Source of the DNA: a virus
Length of the DNA stretch: 39,226 nucleotides
Direction: 5' to 3' (one strand)
IMG/VR virus record: IMGVR_UViG_3300047287_000435
Location: 1-39,226 of that record
Shown: one piece after another, positions 1,446 to 33,590 of the stretch
How positions within the stretch are numbered: the first letter of the stretch is position 1
How the letters are laid out: each line of letters begins with the position of its first letter
The notes under the pieces: model-generated
The model's database searches: none
The model's input: the letters and a program-made list of their open reading frames with translations, nothing else
Told to the model about the DNA's origin: nothing
Program-made: the position numbers and the translations under genes

Positions 1446-1792
1446 CGATTGCTCCAGAGGTTACGAAAGACCGAAAAAACTTGGGCGACGAACCTATCTA
1501 GAGGCAAAGATCCTTTAAGCTGATTACACCAGCGACAACAAGGAACGCAGTTATCCAGAGTATAGCCCCGAGTAGTATCCACGCGGTCAATACCGTTAGT
1601 AAGATCGGTCGAAACGCAGCGTTTTCCGTAGTCGATCCATTCGCGCTTTTGTGGGGCCGCTCCGCAGTAATGGCATGGCTTTTTGATAAGCTCATTAAAT
1701 TCGGCCTTCTCTAATTGCCAGACCTTCCCACCCTGTTTGGCGTTCGAGCGATAGAAGGTCCAGCTGCGGGGGGCGTATGGCTTTTCAACCAC
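1442..1792 (-). CDS. HNH-type endonuclease
   Basis: Contains CHYCG, then NGIDRVD, GYTLDNCVPCC and WCNQLKG. This is the usual order of a zinc-binding HNH nuclease, with two CxxC pairs flanking a His/Asp/Asn ββα-metal core. The segment YRSNAKQGGKVWQLEKAEFNELIKK just before it is also typical. The reading frame is open up to a GTG at 1888 but contains no internal ATG. I place the start at the GTG at 1792, preceded by GGGGA, because the region further upstream is hydrophobic and overlaps the divergent gene's control region. Such proteins act as free-standing homing nucleases or DNA-processing enzymes. It is coupled to the downstream metallopeptidase gene. Confidence 0.65.
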   Translation of the reverse strand: MVEKPYAPRSWTFYRSNAKQGGKVWQLEKAEFNELIKKPCHYCGAAPQKREWIDYGKRCVSTDLTNGIDRVDTTRGYTLDNCVPCCRWCNQLKGSLPLDRFVAQVFSVFRNLWSNR

Positions 1793-1880
1793 TCCCCATA
1801 AGTCGAGCCCGAAAAACCCTAAATCGAAAGGCCAGCTAGACCCATTCCAGACTTGAGACCAGATAAAAACTATGAGGCAA

Positions 1881-4082: not shown

Positions 4083-4300
4083 GCCCTTTTAACGAAGGCC
4101 CGATAGTAGACCTGATCAACCGTAGGTTTGACGACTTACGCCAAGACTTGATTTCGATAAGGGCAGAGCTGAAGGCCGAAATGATAAGACAAGACCAAAG
4201 GATTACGGAGTTAGAAAAGATCCATTGGAAAGTGGCCGGCGGCGTGACTCTCGCCGTTCTCGTCGTACAGTTACTTTATGACAAGCTCATCGCTTCTTAA
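4079..4300 (+). CDS. Coiled-coil membrane protein
   Basis: A 73-residue protein. Residues 10-48 form a charged amphipathic helix or coiled coil (RRFDDLRQDLISIRAELKAE). A single transmembrane segment follows at about 52-68 (AGGVTLAVLVVQLLY) and a very short tail. This layout resembles XhlA-type haemolysin or holin-accessory proteins of phages, which sit in the inner membrane and help lysis. The gene lies in the packaging cluster, far from the endolysin, so a lysis role is only a possibility. The start gives an ATGA overlap and the end overlaps the terminase by 23 bases. Confidence 0.6.
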   Translation: MSPFNEGPIVDLINRRFDDLRQDLISIRAELKAEMIRQDQRITELEKIHWKVAGGVTLAVLVVQLLYDKLIAS

Positions 4301-5057
4301 GATCCCCGATCGTATCGCCAAACTATCAGAGCAAGAGCAAACGGCCGCGGCGCTCGACGCCACACGCGAGTTACTGCTCAACGACTTTTTCTTGTTCGCT
4401 AAACGCCTACTTGGCTACTCTGATATGGAATGGGACGTACATCGAGAAGCGGTACAGGCTCTAGAATCAAGCGCAAAGAGAAAACTTATCGTGATGCCGC
4501 GAGGATCATTCAAGAGTTCCTTAGGGAGCGTCGCTTACCCTATATGGAGAATCCTGAAAGATCCGAACATCACGATTTTGCTCGACTCCGAGCTATATAC
4601 AAACAGCAAGAACCTATTACGAGAGATCAAAGGGCATTTATCGAGCGCACGTTTCATAAATATTTTCACGGACATTTCGGGTTCTAAATGGGACGAAGGC
4701 GAAATCATCGTCAAAACCAGGACCAGGAACCGTAAAGAGGCGACGATTACAGTCGGCGGAATCGGCACGACCAAAGTCGGCCAGCACTATGACCTAATCA
4801 TTGGCGATGACTATAACTCGGCGCAAAACTCAGATAGCCCAGAGAAGTGCCAGAAGGTCCTTGATCACTTCAAGTATAACTTGAACATCTTAAACCCAGG
4901 TGGCGAGTACGTGATTATTGGGACTCGGTATGCGGAGCTTGATGTTATAGGCTTTTTATTGTCGAATGTTTTAGAAGAGAAATACTTGGCCGAGGGCAAG
5001 CTCTTAAGGGGAAGCCCGCATGTTCAAGAGGCCGACGAATCCGGGGGGATATTTTGA
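4278..5057 (+). CDS. terL: Large terminase, ATPase half (split gene)
   Basis: 259 residues covering the N-terminal motor domain of the phage large terminase: Walker A PRGSFKSS (74-81), Walker B LIIGDD (173-178) and the coupling motif IGTRY (214-218). This domain pumps DNA into the procapsid. The frame stops at residue 259, just where the linker to the nuclease domain should begin; the nuclease domain is encoded separately at 7880-8698. Together the halves make about 530 residues, normal for a terminase. At the break, GGGGGGATATTTTGA puts the stop in place; dropping one G would restore a Tyr-Phe-Glu frame like that at the start of the nuclease half. The stop overlaps the TTG start of the next gene. 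Confidence 0.88.
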   Translation: MTSSSLLKIPDRIAKLSEQEQTAAALDATRELLLNDFFLFAKRLLGYSDMEWDVHREAVQALESSAKRKLIVMPRGSFKSSLGSVAYPIWRILKDPNITILLDSELYTNSKNLLREIKGHLSSARFINIFTDISGSKWDEGEIIVKTRTRNRKEATITVGGIGTTKVGQHYDLIIGDDYNSAQNSDSPEKCQKVLDHFKYNLNILNPGGEYVIIGTRYAELDVIGFLLSNVLEEKYLAEGKLLRGSPHVQEADESGGIF

Positions 5058-5380
5058 GCGCACAAGCTAGAGATACGTTTCGCATCGGCTCGACTCTTAT
5101 GGTCGTAGGCCTTTCTAACGCGGTGGACTTTGTGCCTCCCGCTAACTGTAACGGCGGGTTTTTTAAGATCCAAAGCGGCGGCGGAACGCTCTACATCGCA
5201 AGCTCCTATAGCCAAATCGTAGGCGCGACCATGTACTCGGTAGGCGCGACTGAGATAGTTCAGTTCGATGGCCCGGCCCGGTTCTTCTTAGGTGCCGCCG
5301 GTGCGACGATGGTCGTAAGTGTCGGCCTTAAATACTCTAGCTATCAAGGTATTACTCAAAGCCCGATTGCGGGGGGATAA
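5054..5380 (+). CDS. Small virion-type protein inside the terminase split
   Basis: A 108-residue protein, rich in Gly, Ala, Ser and Val, with alternating hydrophobic residues that suggest an all-beta fold (FRIGSTLMVVGLSNAVDF, TLYIASSYSQIVGATMY). It looks like small structural or decoration proteins near tail-fibre genes. The start is TTG, overlapping the TGA of the terminase ATPase half (TTGA), with G6 a few bases upstream acting as the ribosome site. The next gene is preceded by the same GGGGGGATA block, so the pair looks like a cassette. No family is assigned with certainty. Confidence 0.6.
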   Translation: MSAQARDTFRIGSTLMVVGLSNAVDFVPPANCNGGFFKIQSGGGTLYIASSYSQIVGATMYSVGATEIVQFDGPARFFLGAAGATMVVSVGLKYSSYQGITQSPIAGG

Positions 5381-7312
5381 ATGGGGTTACCGCAATCTGG
5401 GCCCTTTCTCTTTAGATCGGGCGGTGGAGGCGGTAGTGCCTCTGGCTCCTCAGGCATCAATTACCTAAGCGCCATCTATGCTGGCGATACGACCACGAAC
5501 ATCAACACCTATAACGATGGGGCCAGCTCTACTCCTACGAATGGAACTGGCGGCGTAGTCGCTGGCCTCACTACAGCCTTAAACACTACGACTCCTCTTG
5601 TCGGAACGTCATGCGTTAGGTTTTCGAAGGATGCCTCAAATAGGCAAGGCGAAGGCTGGTCTTATGACTTTACGGTCGATGATATATCGAGCGACTCGAG
5701 CCAGCCGGTATTCATACAATTCTACTACCGGACTAGCGCAAACTACGCGTCGAGCGACTTAAGGGTTTTCGTTTACGACGTTACGAACTCTACGCTTTTA
5801 AACGTCCAAGACATATCTAATAATTCAGGCAACATTATCGCAGCGCCGAGTGATGCGCTATTTACTGGTGTTTTCTATACAGTAAGCGCGTCTAGCTCTT
5901 ATCGGTTGATCTGGCATATCACGAGTACAAATGCATCGGCCTATGATTTTGATATTGATAATTTTGTAGCTAGTCCTCAGGGCGTAGTTCCGGGCGCTAT
6001 AGTTGCGGACTATGGGACTGAGACTTGGACTGACTCTTGGGCTAACTCCACGACTAGCGTCAAATTACTTCGAATCGGTAACCGAGTTTTTGCGCGAGGT
6101 ATTTCAACCATTACTGGAGCTGGAGATACAAACTTCGCAATCACGGTTCCTGCAGCCTACACCGGCGATAGTTCCTACAACTTCACGCAAGCATCAAATA
6201 ACGTCGGAATGGCATCTCTCCGCGACACCGGGACCGATACATTTATAGGCTCAGCCGTGCTCACTGCCGCAAATACTTTGACTATCTATGCAATAGACCC
6301 GGCTACCGCCACAAATAACTGGGCTACCCTTACTTCAACAAATCCTTTTACGTGGACAAACGGCGACTTTATTTTCTGGGAGGCCTCTTGGTTTGTCTCG
6401 GGCTGGTCCGCATCGGCAGCCTTAAGCACGACTGAGGCTTTGTTTAGTACGGGCCAATTTACGGCTAGAAAGTCAGGCACTCAGACAATTAGCTCAGCAT
6501 CGCCAACAAAGGTAACTTGGACAACTCCATCAAAAGATAATCTCAACGGATGGGACTCTGTAAACAATAGATATACGGTCGCGAAGTCTGGGCGATGGAA
6601 CGTTGACGCTTCTTTAGGTACGGCAAACGTCGCATCTGAGATTTTTCTTGTAATGATTTACGTCAACGGATCTGAAGTTAGACGAAACTATTTTAACGGC
6701 ACGACTAGCAACGGAACAATTTCTGCACCCCTCGATTTAAATAAGGGCGACTACATCGAGATATGGGTCGATTCTAGTGCCGATACGTCTTACGATATTA
6801 TCTCAACTGACGGCTATACTTGGTTTAGTGTTACTGAGGACCCCAACTTCTCCATCTTCTCCACCTACGGGCAGTTTGAACTCATAACCGCGACTAGTTC
6901 GGTAAAGACGCCGAGTGCGACGAATAACTATCATCAGTTGACTGGTAATTCGCTTACGCTAACGCCGGGGACTTGGAAGCTACAGGGTAGCGCAAGATTT
7001 GCGTCGAGTGGTTCTCCGGCCTACACATTTGGCGGTATTGGATTTTTTGGAGCCAACGGAGCTGATACATCTAGCATACCTGCCGCACTAAGCACGGTAG
7101 GAACCGTTTTAAGTTCTAGTGATGCATCGGTTTACGGCGCAGGCGGAACAGGCGGCCCTCTTTCTGCGACCGGCATTGATAATATGCAAACGGGCTCAGT
7201 CATTTTTCGTACTACATCTACGGTTACAGTTTACATTGTGTCTATTTCTTTTCAGACCACTGCCGCAAACGCCCGAATCACGGTCTACGCCAACGCGGAG
7301 CGGTTACAGTAG
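5381..7312 (+). CDS. Tail-fibre / receptor-binding type protein with C1q-like domain
   Basis: 643 residues, beta-rich, strongly enriched in Ser, Thr, Ala and Asn. After a Gly/Ser linker (about 13-25), residues 75-200 look like a jelly-roll carbohydrate-binding module (SKDASNRQGEGWSYDFTVDD). Residues about 359-485 resemble a C1q/TNF-like trimerising head (TGQFTARKSGTQTISS, then GRWNVDASLG and IYVNGSEVRR). A third beta domain fills 497-643. Such proteins form trimeric fibres or spikes that bind host glycans. The gene is oddly placed between the two halves of the large terminase rather than after the tail genes. Start: ATG directly after the previous stop, with GGGGGGAT upstream. Confidence 0.75.
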   Translation: MGLPQSGPFLFRSGGGGGSASGSSGINYLSAIYAGDTTTNINTYNDGASSTPTNGTGGVVAGLTTALNTTTPLVGTSCVRFSKDASNRQGEGWSYDFTVDDISSDSSQPVFIQFYYRTSANYASSDLRVFVYDVTNSTLLNVQDISNNSGNIIAAPSDALFTGVFYTVSASSSYRLIWHITSTNASAYDFDIDNFVASPQGVVPGAIVADYGTETWTDSWANSTTSVKLLRIGNRVFARGISTITGAGDTNFAITVPAAYTGDSSYNFTQASNNVGMASLRDTGTDTFIGSAVLTAANTLTIYAIDPATATNNWATLTSTNPFTWTNGDFIFWEASWFVSGWSASAALSTTEALFSTGQFTARKSGTQTISSASPTKVTWTTPSKDNLNGWDSVNNRYTVAKSGRWNVDASLGTANVASEIFLVMIYVNGSEVRRNYFNGTTSNGTISAPLDLNKGDYIEIWVDSSADTSYDIISTDGYTWFSVTEDPNFSIFSTYGQFELITATSSVKTPSATNNYHQLTGNSLTLTPGTWKLQGSARFASSGSPAYTFGGIGFFGANGADTSSIPAALSTVGTVLSSSDASVYGAGGTGGPLSATGIDNMQTGSVIFRTTSTVTVYIVSISFQTTAANARITVYANAERLQ

Positions 7313-7313
7313 C

Positions 7314-7442
7314 GTGTATTTCGAGAAAGTCGTAGACGGTGAAACTTGGGTAGTCTGCTTGACTATTTATCAAGAGATGGGCGATCATTTTTGGAATGAA
7401 ACTTATTCAGTTAAGCCAGGGCAAATGTGCGAAGGTCGATGA
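7314..7442 (+). pseudogene. Remnant copy of the terminase junction segment
   Basis: Right after the fibre stop, the frame beginning GTG at 7314 reads VYFEKVVDGETWVVC and then continues to a stop at 7442. The nuclease half of the terminase begins MYFEKEVDGELWACC at 7880, so this is a diverged second copy of that boundary, broken by the homing endonuclease gene that starts at 7396. No good ribosome site precedes it. It is best read as a fragment of a terminase gene left behind by insertion or gene conversion. Confidence 0.6.
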
Positions 7443-7890
7443 TGACGTTTTTGATTTAATAAAAGGTTTTAAGTGGACAGCGACAAGAGGACATAAAACC
7501 TTTTACGCGGTGAGGGGTGAAGCGGTCGCTCCGTACAAGAGGCGCCTAATACAAATGCATCGGCAAATTCTCGGTGCTCCGCCGTTTCCTAGGGCCGAAG
7601 TAGACCATATCAACGGGGATGGCCTAGATAACCAGAAAGCAAATCTGCGCTGGTGCACTCACGCCGAGAATCGAAGGAACGAACCTAAAAGAAAGACAAA
7701 AAGTATCAGTCGTTTCAAAGGCGTATTTTATAGACCAAAATTGAAGAAGAAACGATGGATGGCTCAAATAAAAGTTCAAGGTCGAGCGCTTTTCTTAGGT
7801 CACTTTTTAACGGAAGAGGAAGCCGCCGAAGCCTATAATAAAGCCGCACTGATCTATTTCCGTGAACATGCGAGATTAAATGTACTTTGA
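7396..7890 (+). CDS. HNH homing endonuclease with AP2 domain
   Basis: A 164-residue protein. The HNH core is MHRQILG...VDHINGDGLDNQKANLRWCTHAEN (about residues 55-93), containing the invariant His, Asp-His and Asn residues. It is followed by an AP2-type DNA-binding domain (FKGVFYRPKLKKKRWMAQI to AAEAYNKAALIYF). This is a common architecture of mobile phage endonucleases that cut a cognate allele and spread by repair. Its gene sits at the split in the large terminase. Its last codons overlap the ATG of the terminase nuclease half by 11 bases, so that half may be translated by coupling. It is related in plan to the nuclease at 19243-19758. Confidence 0.85.
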   Translation: MKLIQLSQGKCAKVDDDVFDLIKGFKWTATRGHKTFYAVRGEAVAPYKRRLIQMHRQILGAPPFPRAEVDHINGDGLDNQKANLRWCTHAENRRNEPKRKTKSISRFKGVFYRPKLKKKRWMAQIKVQGRALFLGHFLTEEEAAEAYNKAALIYFREHARLNVL

Positions 7891-8698
7891 GAAGGAAGTA
7901 GATGGAGAGCTTTGGGCGTGCTGTTACGATAAAGCTATTCGCGAGGATGGCAGTTACATGTTTCCCAAAAAACTCACGCCTGAGTTTTTGGCCAGGCAAA
8001 GGAAAGCTCAAGGCTCGTACATCTTTTCTTTTCAGTATCTTAACGAAATCATACCTGCCGATGACCAGGACTTTAAAAAAGAATGGCTTCGGTATTACCA
8101 AGAGCTTCCAAAGATAAAGCACACGTTCGCGTTTGTAGACCCGGCGATATCGCTCGAAAACCATGCGGACTACACCGCTATCGTAGTCGTTGACGTTGAT
8201 GTGAATAACGACTGGTACTTAAAAGTAGCAAGGCGAGCTAGGATAACCGCGACGCAAACCGTTAAGTTGATCTTTGACCTTCAGAAGCTATTCAAATGTA
8301 ACGTAATTGGGATCGAGGCCGTAGCTTACCAGATGGCGTTGATGCACTTTATCGCGGACGAGATGAAGCTTCGGAAAACGGTTATCCCGGTTCATGCGAT
8401 AAAGAGAGGCCCCGATAAGTCTAAGGCCATGCGCATTAGGTCTTTAGTCCCTAGGTTTGAGTGGGGACATATCTATGTGAAGGCTGGGCTTCATGAGTTC
8501 GAGGACGAGTTTGCTAAATTTCCTAGAGGCACCTACGTTGACATCTTAGATGCCCTAGCTAGTATCGAAGAGATTGCTTACCCACCGGATAAGGAGCGCG
8601 TGAATGCAAGAGAGCCAGCCAGAAACAGCCCGGAATACGAAAAGTGGTACATTAGAAACCTCCTCAAAACAAAAGCGCAAGCGCAGGACGAAGGCTGA
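7880..8698 (+). CDS. terL: Large terminase, nuclease half (split gene)
   Basis: 272 residues forming the C-terminal RNase H-fold nuclease domain of the large terminase, plus the preceding linker (SYIFSFQYLNEIIPADDQDF, about 46-65). Likely metal-binding acids: Asp87 in FAFVDPA, Glu146 in IGIEAV, and Asp221/Asp224 in VDILDAL. This domain cuts concatemeric DNA at the start and end of packaging. It begins with ATG inside the homing endonuclease gene and has no strong Shine-Dalgarno of its own, so coupling is likely. Its partner ATPase half ends at 5057. The nuclease motifs look intact, which argues for a working two-piece enzyme rather than decay. Confidence 0.88.
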   Translation: MYFEKEVDGELWACCYDKAIREDGSYMFPKKLTPEFLARQRKAQGSYIFSFQYLNEIIPADDQDFKKEWLRYYQELPKIKHTFAFVDPAISLENHADYTAIVVVDVDVNNDWYLKVARRARITATQTVKLIFDLQKLFKCNVIGIEAVAYQMALMHFIADEMKLRKTVIPVHAIKRGPDKSKAMRIRSLVPRFEWGHIYVKAGLHEFEDEFAKFPRGTYVDILDALASIEEIAYPPDKERVNAREPARNSPEYEKWYIRNLLKTKAQAQDEG

Positions 8699-18584: not shown

Positions 18585-19243
18585 CGCTTTCACAGCTAAG
18601 AACTCTAGCTCTTGACTGGCTCGACGATCCTTCAGGCACCTACTTTACTCAAAGCGTCTTAAACTTAAGGCTTAACCTGGCTCAACGAGAGCTTCAAAAG
18701 AGACTGATTTCGGCGAACAAGGAATTCTATCTCAAATGCGTAAAAACAAACACGGTAGCGGCTCAGCAAGCCTATGCCGTGCCTTCGGATTTCATTCAAG
18801 TCTTACGCCTGGAATGGTACGAAGTCGGAACATCTGCGACAAGTCTATCGAATCAAATCATGCCGATGACGCCGAATCAGAGGGATTTAGTCGGAACCGT
18901 AACTGGCGATCCTCAGTTCTGGACGTTCGCGAAAAACAATATTCTTTTCTGGCCGATCCCTGATAGAGCGGTCGAGGTTCACCTAGAATATTCATATTTA
19001 GTCGCCGACATGTCGAGCGACTCCGACGAGCCGGATGCGCCTGAAGAGTTTCATGAATATATCGCGATCTTAGCGACTAGGGATTGCCTCTTAAAAGACG
19101 GTAGACCCTTATCTCCGATTGAAACCAAGCTTAACGACTTCCAGACACTTATGAAGCAGATCGCGGATCAGAGAAACGTAGACTCTCCGCGAAGAATTGT
19201 TGTAACCCAGGGCGGATCGGCTCCTGGCGGATGGGCCTGGTGA
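18581..19243 (+). CDS. Head-to-tail adaptor (gp4-like)
   Basis: 220 residues. The helical N-terminus LSQLRTLALDWLDDPSGTYF and LNLRLNLAQRELQKRL, then AYAVPSDFIQVLRLEWYEVG and the NILFWPIPDRAVEVHLEY strand region, are typical of short-tailed phage adaptor proteins. These form a ring under the portal and connect the tail nozzle. The start at 18581 forms ATGA with the upstream ORF; an upstream in-frame extension at 18566 is less likely. It is followed by an inserted homing endonuclease gene and then the nozzle gene, its normal partner. Confidence 0.7.
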   Translation: MTLSQLRTLALDWLDDPSGTYFTQSVLNLRLNLAQRELQKRLISANKEFYLKCVKTNTVAAQQAYAVPSDFIQVLRLEWYEVGTSATSLSNQIMPMTPNQRDLVGTVTGDPQFWTFAKNNILFWPIPDRAVEVHLEYSYLVADMSSDSDEPDAPEEFHEYIAILATRDCLLKDGRPLSPIETKLNDFQTLMKQIADQRNVDSPRRIVVTQGGSAPGGWAW

Positions 19244-19758
19244 TGAGCAAGCCCAAGTGGGAAGATCTAGTTATTTATTGCAATGGTCAACTGCAGTGGA
19301 AGCACTTGCCTGAGCTTTCTCCGCGCCACCGCGGCAAAAAAGCCGGGCACATGATTAGATCAATTGGTTACTTTGGGATTGCATATCGCAGAAAAATATA
19401 TCTGGTCCACCGAGTTATTTGGGAGCTTTTTAATGGCCCTATTCCAAGTGGGCGCAAGATAGATCATATAAATCGGATTAGGACTGATAATCGAATAGAA
19501 AACCTTCGTCTAGTTGACAACTACGCTAATTCGCAAAACCAATCTAAGCGTAAAGGCACAAGCTCAAAGCACAAAGGCGTTTATTTTTACAAACGCGTCG
19601 GGAAGTATCTTGCAAGGCTGCATCACCGAGACAAGATTTACTATCTGGGCTATTTTGAGAATGAGGATGATGCTGGACTCGCCTATAATGAAAAGGCGCG
19701 TGAGGTTTTTGGCGAATACGCTAGCCTAAACGTCATTCCTGGAGATGCAAATGGCTGA
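19243..19758 (+). CDS. HNH homing endonuclease with AP2 domain
   Basis: 171 residues from the ATG in TGATG over the adaptor stop. The HNH core is LVHRVIWELFNGPIPSGRKI then DHINRIRTDNRIENLRLVDN (about residues 46-86), with the conserved His, Asp-His and Asn. It is followed by an AP2-like DNA-binding segment (HKGVYFYKRVGKYLARLHHR). The plan matches the nuclease at 7396-7890, including a similar C-terminal ending. It sits exactly between the adaptor and nozzle genes without disrupting either, the usual pattern for free-standing mobile endonucleases. Its end overlaps the nozzle start by eight bases. Confidence 0.85.
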   Translation: MSKPKWEDLVIYCNGQLQWKHLPELSPRHRGKKAGHMIRSIGYFGIAYRRKIYLVHRVIWELFNGPIPSGRKIDHINRIRTDNRIENLRLVDNYANSQNQSKRKGTSSKHKGVYFYKRVGKYLARLHHRDKIYYLGYFENEDDAGLAYNEKAREVFGEYASLNVIPGDANG

Positions 19759-31714: not shown

Positions 31715-31738
31715 CTCCTTAGTAAAAACCGCCGCCGC
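31715..31738. repeat. 24-bp direct repeat, copy 2 (leader with RBS)
   Basis: Identical over 24 bases to 32049-32072. On the minus strand it reads GCGGCGGCGG, TTTTT, ACTAAGGAG: a GC-rich block, a T run and a strong ribosome site just before a start codon. Confidence 0.8.
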
Positions 31739-31764: not shown

Positions 31765-32049
31765 TCATTTTTTCCTTAGCGATTCAATCGCTTCTTTAAA
31801 AGTTTTAAGGTCATCCGGGCTGTGGATTAATTTCAGCAGGCTTTCAAAAACTCGATGAAGCTCGCCATAGGCCTTATCCATCCTGACCTGGGCGTCTTGA
31901 GCGTGATTGTAATATCTCGAGCCACGCTCAAGGAGGCAATCATTTCTAGTTTTCTCTGCTGCAAGTTTGTGTTCTAGGCCAACTATGGTCCCCTTCGCTA
32001 TTGCCAACTCCTCTAGTAATTGTGCTTTTCCTTTAAAAAACATTTTCAC
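31765..32049 (-). CDS. Hypothetical coiled-coil protein
   Basis: 94 residues. MKMFFKGKAQLLEELAIAKG and LEHKLAAEKTRNDCLLERGS indicate a coiled coil; the C-terminus LIHSPDDLKTFKEAIESLRK is helical. ATG preceded by TAAGGAG in the repeated leader, directly after the tRNA-like structure. It is the first gene of the small-gene series. No family recognised. Confidence 0.55.
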   Translation of the reverse strand: MKMFFKGKAQLLEELAIAKGTIVGLEHKLAAEKTRNDCLLERGSRYYNHAQDAQVRMDKAYGELHRVFESLLKLIHSPDDLKTFKEAIESLRKK

Positions 32050-32072
32050 TCCTTAGTAAAAACCGCCGCCGC
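32049..32072. repeat. 24-bp direct repeat, copy 1 (leader with RBS)
   Basis: Identical to 31715-31738. Here the GC-rich block is also the 3' strand of the tRNA-like closing stem, followed by the T run and AAGGAG of the gene starting at 32049. Confidence 0.8.
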
Positions 32073-32141
32073 TTGGGCCGGGCTCGAACCGGCGACTCCC
32101 GTTACGGGCGTGTTCCCACTACACTAGCCAAACGGCAGCGG
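32063..32141 (-). ncRNA. tRNA-like cloverleaf with collapsed anticodon arm
   Basis: On the minus strand a 14-bp closing stem (32128-32141 with 32063-32076, three G-U pairs) encloses three hairpins. One is a D-like arm GTGT/ACAC (32110-32124). One is CCCG-TAA-CGGG (32098-32108) in the anticodon position. One is a perfect T-arm, GCCGG-TTCGAGC-CCGGC (32077-32093), abutting the closing stem. GGTTCGAGCCC matches the tRNA T-loop consensus, but the anticodon arm is about eight bases too short and no CCA end is present. It looks like a tRNA-derived structured RNA or leader element, not a working tRNA. Confidence 0.5.
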
Positions 32142-32411
32142 TTCAAAATTTAAAAACACACCCGTTGCGCATCGGCTTGCCATACGGCGGCCTAGCCTCG
32201 GGCTCTAAACAGGAATCTCACCCGCCTAGCGTGTAAATTTAAAAAGCCCCTCAAGCGGCTTGGCCGGGCGCTTCGGTAAACGCCTGCCGGATCATCATAG
32301 GTCAGCTTTAGCCGGGCTCACTCGCGTGTCCCGAAGGTGACGCCTTTCATTCAATGCCGACGCGCGATTGTCCACGCTGCAAACCGCAAGAGGGACTAAG
32401 CCTATTTCATT
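32142..32411 (-). other. Non-coding, GC-rich structured stretch
   Basis: No convincing gene lies here on either strand. On the minus strand it divides into two GC-rich segments, each ending in TTTTTAAATTT (32235-32245 and about 32146-32156), matching the layout of the tRNA-like segment that follows. Possible stems include GGCGTT/AGCGCC near 32268-32285 and GGCGG/CCGCC in the second segment. It separates the subtilase gene from the small-gene series. Confidence 0.5.
32235..32261 (-). terminator. Possible terminator after the subtilase gene
   Basis: On the minus strand AAGCC pairs with GGCTT around GCTTGAGG, followed by TTTTTAAATTT. The stem is short (5 bp), so at best it is a partial terminator or pausing site. 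Confidence 0.35.
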
Positions 32412-33590
32412 TCATTGCACCGTCGCCATCGCGTCCGCCATCGGGTAACCGCCAACCGTGCCGCTCGTTTTTATGCAGGGCTTTATTCCTTTGGCGACTC
32501 CGAACGCGCAAATCGCCGCTGCATGCGGGGTTGCCATAGACGTGCCGTCAAGACTTCGAGTCCCTCCGCCTGGCCAGTTGGAAACAATACCTGCTCCAGG
32601 AGAGATGAAGCGCGTTTCAGGTCCACGGCTTGAGAACGAAGTGATGCGGTCAGCTTGGTCGCTTGCCGCAATCGCATAAATAAGAGGATTAGACCCAGCA
32701 AGTTTAGCAGGCCAATTAACAGGGCCGCCGTCGTTACCATTTGCGACAAAGACATAAATACCTTTCTGTGTTAGCGATTGGATCGCTTGGTTGATGAGCG
32801 GGTCACTTTGCGTTGAACCCCACGAGTTCGAGACGATTTGCGCCCCTTGGCTTCCGCACCAAGTAAGGCATTGTGCAAGCTGGCTGCTAGATCCTGAGCC
32901 CGAGTCAGACAGTCCTTTGCAGACGAGAAGTTTCGCTCGGCTAACTCCAACGCCTCCCGTGCCTGCGATAGTTCCAGCCACATGAGTCCCGTGACCTTGC
33001 TTGTCTTGAACTGCTCCCGCATAACCAATACTCCCTATGATTTGCCCGTTGTTCGGGTGGTTTAAATCTATACCTGTGTCAATCACGCAGACCTTTACAT
33101 TCGACGTGTCCACTAACCGCTTAGCCTCAAGCGCTCTCACGCGCGTAATACCCCAACTCTTTGCCGTCTCTACCGGTGTAGGTTGAGGCGTTGGGTTAGG
33201 ATTAGGTCCAGGGCAAACTGGGCATTGAGGACATGTGGGCGTAGGCTGACTTTCTACCGGCGTAATCCTATAGAGCGTCTCGAAAGTATGGTAGGTCACC
33301 TCTTCGGTAACTTCCCACTCATCGCTCGAAATCGTTAAAGGGGCTTTCGCGTTCTTTACCGTAAAGCCGTTAATCAGATCAAGCGGCTTCATATTCTCTT
33401 CGCCAAAGATTTTAGCCAAGGCATAAATAGTCGAGCGCTTCATCGTGACTAGGCCTTCTGGCTTTAAAAACTGCTTCTTATTCCAGACCACGTAATTCTT
33501 AGTTTCAGGCCCAGGTCCTTCTACGGCCTTAGGCGTTTCCGTCGTCGCACAGCTCGTAAGCCATAAACATAAAATGATTAGTAGACGCAT
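32412..33590 (-). CDS. Subtilisin-like serine protease lipoprotein
   Basis: 392 residues. The N-terminus MRLLIILCLWLTSCATTE is a lipoprotein signal with lipidated Cys14. A propeptide-like region (30-115) and a Cys/Pro-rich linker (PTCPQCPVCPGPNPNPTPQP) follow. The S8 peptidase domain (145-392) has an intact triad: Asp171 in VIDTGID, His200 in GHGTHVAG, Ser351 in GTSMATPHAA, with oxyanion Asn286 in ANGND. It should be an active, membrane-anchored protease in the periplasm or on the cell surface. That is unusual in a phage; possible roles are host-surface modification, defence against other phages or prey-type functions. It may have been acquired from a bacterium. Confidence 0.88.
   Translation of the reverse strand: MRLLIILCLWLTSCATTETPKAVEGPGPETKNYVVWNKKQFLKPEGLVTMKRSTIYALAKIFGEENMKPLDLINGFTVKNAKAPLTISSDEWEVTEEVTYHTFETLYRITPVESQPTPTCPQCPVCPGPNPNPTPQPTPVETAKSWGITRVRALEAKRLVDTSNVKVCVIDTGIDLNHPNNGQIIGSIGYAGAVQDKQGHGTHVAGTIAGTGGVGVSRAKLLVCKGLSDSGSGSSSQLAQCLTWCGSQGAQIVSNSWGSTQSDPLINQAIQSLTQKGIYVFVANGNDGGPVNWPAKLAGSNPLIYAIAASDQADRITSFSSRGPETRFISPGAGIVSNWPGGGTRSLDGTSMATPHAAAICAFGVAKGIKPCIKTSGTVGGYPMADAMATVQ

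Follow-up and report, generated by a model that had tools for sequence, protein, structure and literature searches.

SpF41 RNA (Rfam family RF02435) adopts a cloverleaf with a 7-nt D loop containing GG, a mini anticodon hairpin of 11-12 nt, a 4-nt variable region and an extended acceptor helix, and it carries no CCA. The pneumococcal F41 RNA has been detected by Northern analysis, and its deletion attenuates sepsis (PMC3395615). Its neighbours in streptococcal phages are a small conserved gene (start MGGRGASSG) on one side and terS on the other; its own TTGAAA/TATAAT promoter is located inside the end of the MGGRGASSG gene, and a separate terminator stands behind the RNA. Another tRNA-like RNA with a reduced anticodon arm, mascRNA/menRNA (RF01684, animal MALAT1), resides inside a longer transcript, from which RNase P and RNase Z release it before CCA is added.

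Here we describe a tRNA-like element encoded in a 39,226-nt stretch of viral DNA (IMG/VR record IMGVR_UViG_3300047287_000435, positions 1 to 39,226; hereafter the window). The element is similar to non-decoding tRNA-like RNAs of other phages and of bacteria, a class that has attracted little notice. At this locus an RNA of that known kind is combined, within a leader, with a tail that resembles a terminator.

Short-arm tRNA-like RNAs in phages and bacteria

IMG/VR, together with one genome per species (84,980 species), was scanned with a D-arm/T-arm pattern designed to leave out normal anticodon arms. The scan recovered SpF41 from streptococcal phages and satellites as well as similar RNAs in phages of other Firmicutes (L017 and L040), where the order of MGGRGASSG-type gene, promoter and RNA is retained. 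When the D/T pattern was relaxed, extra matches appeared (L103-L107) that we dismissed as chance. The pattern CCCGNNNCGGG plus a T arm occurred at 31 loci, and a short-arm cloverleaf was formed by L097 alone.

A model of these RNAs, R1, was built from 11 SpF41-type sequences with the window left out. Covariation was strong: thirteen of its 22 pairs were changed on both sides, a result obtained in none of 500 shuffles. Applied to 295 genomes of the order to which L040 belongs, R1 identified short-arm RNAs in seven, L040 among them. These clostridial relatives (L113-L118 and L040) are unannotated, have promoters, and bear mini anticodon arms capped by GNRA or UUCG loops; the loops that replace the anticodon include GAAA, GCAA and UUCG. 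ARAGORN was silent at these loci. With the clostridial additions, the window element and L053 included, 16 of 21 pairs were doubly changed, in an alignment that was fitted to the model. SpF41 therefore mimics a tRNA, and its mini anticodon arm covaries; in a literature search conducted mostly outside subscription journals we found no paper that calls it a tRNA mimic or names the clostridial relatives.

Several loci in this collection have arrangements of their own. Different short-arm tRNA-like RNAs occur as tandem pairs in a phage (L017, 2875-3014, minus strand) and in a streptococcal satellite (L101, 303-372 and 538-607, plus strand). A short-arm RNA in L053 (1430-1496, minus strand) is positioned ~190 nt ahead of terS (PF03592), in a phage contig that is otherwise different. 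In L050, a tRNA-like gene with an anticodon arm of normal length (1724-1823, minus strand) has a leader and trailer that extend the acceptor to 22 bp, indicating that leader-trailer helices are not exclusive to the window.

A tRNA-like element upstream of a small-gene operon

The window represents a podovirus-like phage, with genes for a portal, capsid, internal virion protein, endolysin and split terminase, and the closest relatives of this phage are uncultivated. Its minus strand carries a tRNA-like structure at 32141-32063, with the sequence CCGCTGCCGTTTGG CTA GTGTAGTGGGAACAC G CCCGTAACGGG AGTC GCCGGTTCGAGCCCGGC CCAAGCGGCGGCGG. Read arm by arm this is CCGCTGCCGTTTGG CTA GTGT-AGTGGGA-ACAC G CCCG-TAA-CGGG AGTC GCCGG-TTCGAGC-CCGGC CCAAGCGGCGGCGG, giving a D arm of 4 bp with a 7-nt loop, an anticodon arm of 4 bp with a 3-nt loop and a T arm of 5 bp with a 7-nt loop (Table 1). 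The original prediction, which did not specify a strand, had proposed a cloverleaf with a 14-bp closing stem and a three-base anticodon loop. We confirmed this fold: the stem comprises exactly 14 bp with no mismatches and two G-U pairs, and a descriptor for cloverleafs with a short anticodon arm matched once in the window and never in 100 Markov-simulated windows. The anticodon arm can be paired either as CCCG/UAA/CGGG, with the 3-nt loop, or as CCC/GUAAC/GGG, with a loop of 5 nt. The prediction that the element abuts a T run and the ribosome site of the next gene also held, since the stem is followed on the minus strand by TTTTT, ACT, AAGGAG and then an ATG at 32043.

Three additional pairs can extend the closing stem to 17 bp (32144-32060). 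The resulting form of 85 nt reaches -46.0 kcal/mol (z -3.8), with none of 300 shuffles as good, while the z-score of the 79-nt form (32141-32063) is about -2.6. The cloverleaf lies within 0.2 kcal/mol of the minimum fold, which differs in the D arm only. For ten further flanking pairs to form by chance beyond a given point the probability is about 1e-4. The RNA is probably the minus strand, because the two G-U pairs of the stem become A-C mismatches on the plus strand, where folding is weaker (-34.7 kcal/mol, with 14 of 200 shuffles as good).

Table 1. Features of the element and its surroundings, listed in the direction of minus-strand transcription
Feature	Position	Strand	Evidence
Gene upstream, encoding a subtilase (Peptidase_S8) that has a lipoprotein-like signal	32412..33590	-	protein annotation
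Predicted gap structure 1, with a long closing stem, then TTTTTAAATTT	32245..32397	-	fold z -1.9
Predicted gap structure 2, then TTTTTAAATTT	32157..32234	-	fold z -1.2
Whole tRNA-like element, 17-bp closing stem	32060..32144	-	fold z -3.8; Rfam tRNA; R1
Closing stem, 5' side, GAACCGCTGCCGTTTGG	32128..32144	-	fold
Connector CTA, 3 nt versus the usual 2; equivalents of U8 and A9	32125..32127	-	sequence, descriptor
D arm GTGT-AGTGGGA-ACAC; equivalents of A14, G15, G18, G19 and A21	32110..32124	-	fold, descriptor, R1
Collapsed anticodon arm CCCG-UAA-CGGG	32098..32108	-	fold, descriptor, R1
Variable region AGTC; C48 equivalent pairs with G15	32094..32097	-	sequence, descriptor
T arm GCCGG-TTCGAGC-CCGGC	32077..32093	-	fold, descriptor, R1
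Closing stem, 3' side, CCAAGCGGCGGCGGTTT; last three Ts shared with the T run	32060..32076	-	fold
T run abutting the 14-bp stem; candidate tail of an intrinsic terminator	32058..32062	-	sequence
Shine-Dalgarno sequence AAGGAG	32049..32054	-	sequence
First downstream gene, 92 aa, heading a chain of small unknown genes	31765..32043	-	no family match

The element is very probably a tRNA-derived RNA that has lost decoding: the elbow-forming acceptor, T and D parts are retained, and leader and trailer are fused into a helix of 14-17 bp. Derivation from a tRNA had been suggested previously, and two results substantiate it. In a scan of 121 nt with permissive filters, the Rfam tRNA model (RF00005, gathering score 29) matched over its full length at 32133-32070 with 34.3 bits. 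Moreover, the elbow is intact, because all five of its pairs (U8-A14, G15-C48, G18-U55, G19-C56 and U54-A58, in tRNA numbering read onto the sequence) are present. A default-filter scan of the window at gathering level reported nothing from Rfam, and ARAGORN called no tRNA gene in the window. The element thus shares the fold, the T loop and the D-T elbow contacts with canonical tRNA. It differs in that the anticodon arm measures 11 rather than 17 nt, the usual 5-bp stem and 7-nt loop being absent and the anticodon lost, and in that an extra base sits between the acceptor and the D stem. In addition, where a canonical tRNA has a 7-bp acceptor with a free leader and a 3' CCA, or room for one, the element has its 14-17 bp stem; CCA is unencoded and the U run comes immediately after the stem.

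The element closes a noncoding gap of 368 nt (32044-32411) in a same-strand operon that is otherwise tightly packed. The region 32063-32411 is GC-rich (58% versus 49% for the genome), ranking second of 778 windows. No sigma-70-type promoter was found in a promoter scan between the upstream gene and the Shine-Dalgarno sequence, and therefore the element sits within a transcription unit. The T string TTTTTAAATTT occurs at just two sites in the window, one of them at 32235-32245, each behind one of the two upstream gap structures; the folds of these structures are not significant individually, and neither matched an Rfam family. An exact 24-nt repeat, GCGGCGGCGGTTTTTACTAAGGAG, is present on the minus strand at 32049-32072 and 31715-31738. 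It takes in one half of the closing stem together with the T run and the Shine-Dalgarno sequence, and the copy at 31715-31738 lies within the next gene, right before an ATG. The 92-aa product of the first downstream gene matched no family and has no relative in IMG/VR.

A proposed terminator-like leader and competing explanations

We tentatively propose that the element is a non-decoding, tRNA-derived RNA whose fused leader-trailer helix, together with U5, may serve as a terminator or attenuator before the small-gene operon. During transcription of the minus-strand operon the three arms would fold first. As the 3' side of the stem leaves RNA polymerase, it would pair with the 5' side, by then already exposed, and so enclose the folded core, and the closed helix with the immediate U5 would end or attenuate transcription, either partially or in a regulated manner. 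Termination would release a small, compact RNA of tRNA shape that ends in a U tail, whereas read-through would yield the mRNA of the small-gene operon, with the Shine-Dalgarno sequence 3 nt further on. The sequence shows the fold, the tRNA derivation, the loss of decoding, the position, the U run and the Shine-Dalgarno sequence; termination, control of read-through and stability of the product are what we infer. The 17-bp stem is flush with TTTTT, and its closure at the T run would have the geometry of an intrinsic terminator.

Like a rho-independent terminator or attenuator, the element has a GC-rich stem, five Ts directly behind it and a gene downstream. The GC-rich gap is consistent with such a role, as are the two further gap stems that also run into TTTTTAAATTT. 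Counting against it, there are just five consecutive Ts, and the stem closes over the 51 nt of a three-armed tRNA core where a terminator has a loop of 3-8 nt. These two properties account for the element not being called by a terminator scan. The original prediction of a translation-control leader stands in so far as the element is a leader directly before the ribosome-binding site. However, the stem ends in U5 and leaves the Shine-Dalgarno sequence uncovered, which makes termination or attenuation the simpler reading; a role in translation control is possible.

Alternatively, the element could be a separately made, trans-acting small RNA of the SpF41 type that occupies proteins binding the elbow or acceptor (candidate targets include modification enzymes, EF-Tu, RNase P and tRNA-directed defence), its position before the Shine-Dalgarno sequence being incidental. 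The architecture agrees with SpF41 and its clostridial relatives in the mini anticodon arm, the extra connector base, the extended acceptor helix and the 4-nt variable region, with SpF41 also in the 7-nt D loop containing GG and the lack of CCA, and F41 is an expressed RNA with a deletion phenotype (PMC3395615). R1, built without the window, gave a single match there (44.2 bits, 32136-32068), above the best full-length tRNAs in 39 other loci (about 33 bits). Host tRNA-Gln genes elsewhere nevertheless reach 42-46 bits with R1, so that this score denotes tRNA-likeness with a short arm rather than descent from the SpF41 group. For the same reason, with host tRNA-Gln(CTG) scoring just as high, R1 or SpF41 scores were rejected as proof of kinship. 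The SpF41 model itself gave 38.7 and 30.3 bits, placing the element below the gathering score of 52 and outside the family. Moreover, the SpF41 group has its own promoter, a separate terminator hairpin and, in phages, a position before terS, whereas the window element is promoterless and its closing stem itself meets the T run. We consider a trans-acting RNA of this type unlikely.

It is rather improbable that the element is a decaying phage tRNA gene, which would have undergone a recent 6-base deletion in the anticodon arm and would be under no present selection, with the leader-trailer pairing a relic or chance. Short-arm tRNA genes also occur within large phage tRNA arrays (L010, L015 and L016), canonical phage tRNAs with leader-trailer helices of 13-22 bp are known from this collection (L050, L098 and L071), and related phages lack the element. 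Decay is, however, difficult to reconcile with perfectly paired arms, intact elbow residues, a clean mini-arm hairpin and a stem flush with the T run and Shine-Dalgarno sequence, or with the low chance probability of a 10-bp extension.

The element had also been envisaged as a substrate of RNase P, an enzyme that reads the T arm and the contacts between T and D arms. Its preference is for leaders that are unpaired, and a paired leader and a missing CCA both oppose its cleavage. Leader and trailer of the element pair completely over 7-10 bp past the normal 7-bp acceptor, and no CCA is encoded, contrary to this proposal; the paired leader makes RNase P processing a disfavoured route. A related scheme, in which cleavage at the acceptor parts the upstream RNA from the downstream mRNA as at the tRNA-like end of MALAT1, is accordingly very unlikely. 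The T arm and T-D contacts would suit it, and a similar element (L017b) scored 32.7 bits with the mascRNA model (cut-off 42.5), but the pairing extends past the normal cut site and distinguishes the window element from mascRNA; the window gave no match to that model. Finally, an attachment-site remnant is not favoured, as no integrase was found among the window proteins scanned.

Related phages and non-decoding tRNA mimics

Returning to the proposed terminator-like leader, the element preserves the shape of a tRNA scaffold after loss of the decoding part, at a site where control of transcription is possible. A speculative generalisation, which we regard as doubtful, is that phages repeatedly remade tRNAs into stable non-decoding RNAs of tRNA shape, in which a mini hairpin, frequently capped by GNRA or UUCG, takes the place of the anticodon arm and the acceptor is stretched into a long helix, and that these RNAs act on the host tRNA machinery or on tRNA-directed defences. 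SpF41 would be one branch and the window element another, arising in an unrelated phage and doubling as terminator and mRNA leader. SpF41 and its clostridial relatives provide RNAs with which one can test how tRNA mimics that do not decode benefit phages, and the recognition of SpF41 as a tRNA mimic, a by-product of this analysis, may outvalue the window element itself.

A search with the capsid protein identified four contigs of the same phage group (59-68% identity), and a portal search added a fifth related contig of 6.4 kb (portal identity 80%). The element and the subtilase were found in none of these five contigs, which are fragments, so that absence from them is not proof; the window genes from ~23.4 kb to 39 kb likewise had no counterpart in the parts of the related contigs that were examined. 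The upstream subtilase had protein matches of only 30-33%. A BLAST search with the region returned no match among GenBank phages, and the 91-nt element alone gave only short matches, mostly to the T arm. As judged from these fragmentary contigs, the element looks accessory.

The large terminase gene of the window (4278-8698, plus strand) is split, with 4278-5057 and 7880-8698 matching consecutive parts of phrog_38. Between the two parts lie an ORF of 643 aa and an ORF for an HNH endonuclease. In the relatives L130 and L131 the terminase is interrupted at this site as well; a homologue of the 643-aa ORF is present inside that of L130 and absent from that of L131. Ahead of the internal virion protein gene, the product of a further ORF (19231-19758, plus strand) shares 39% identity with the HNH endonuclease in the split terminase of the relative L031.
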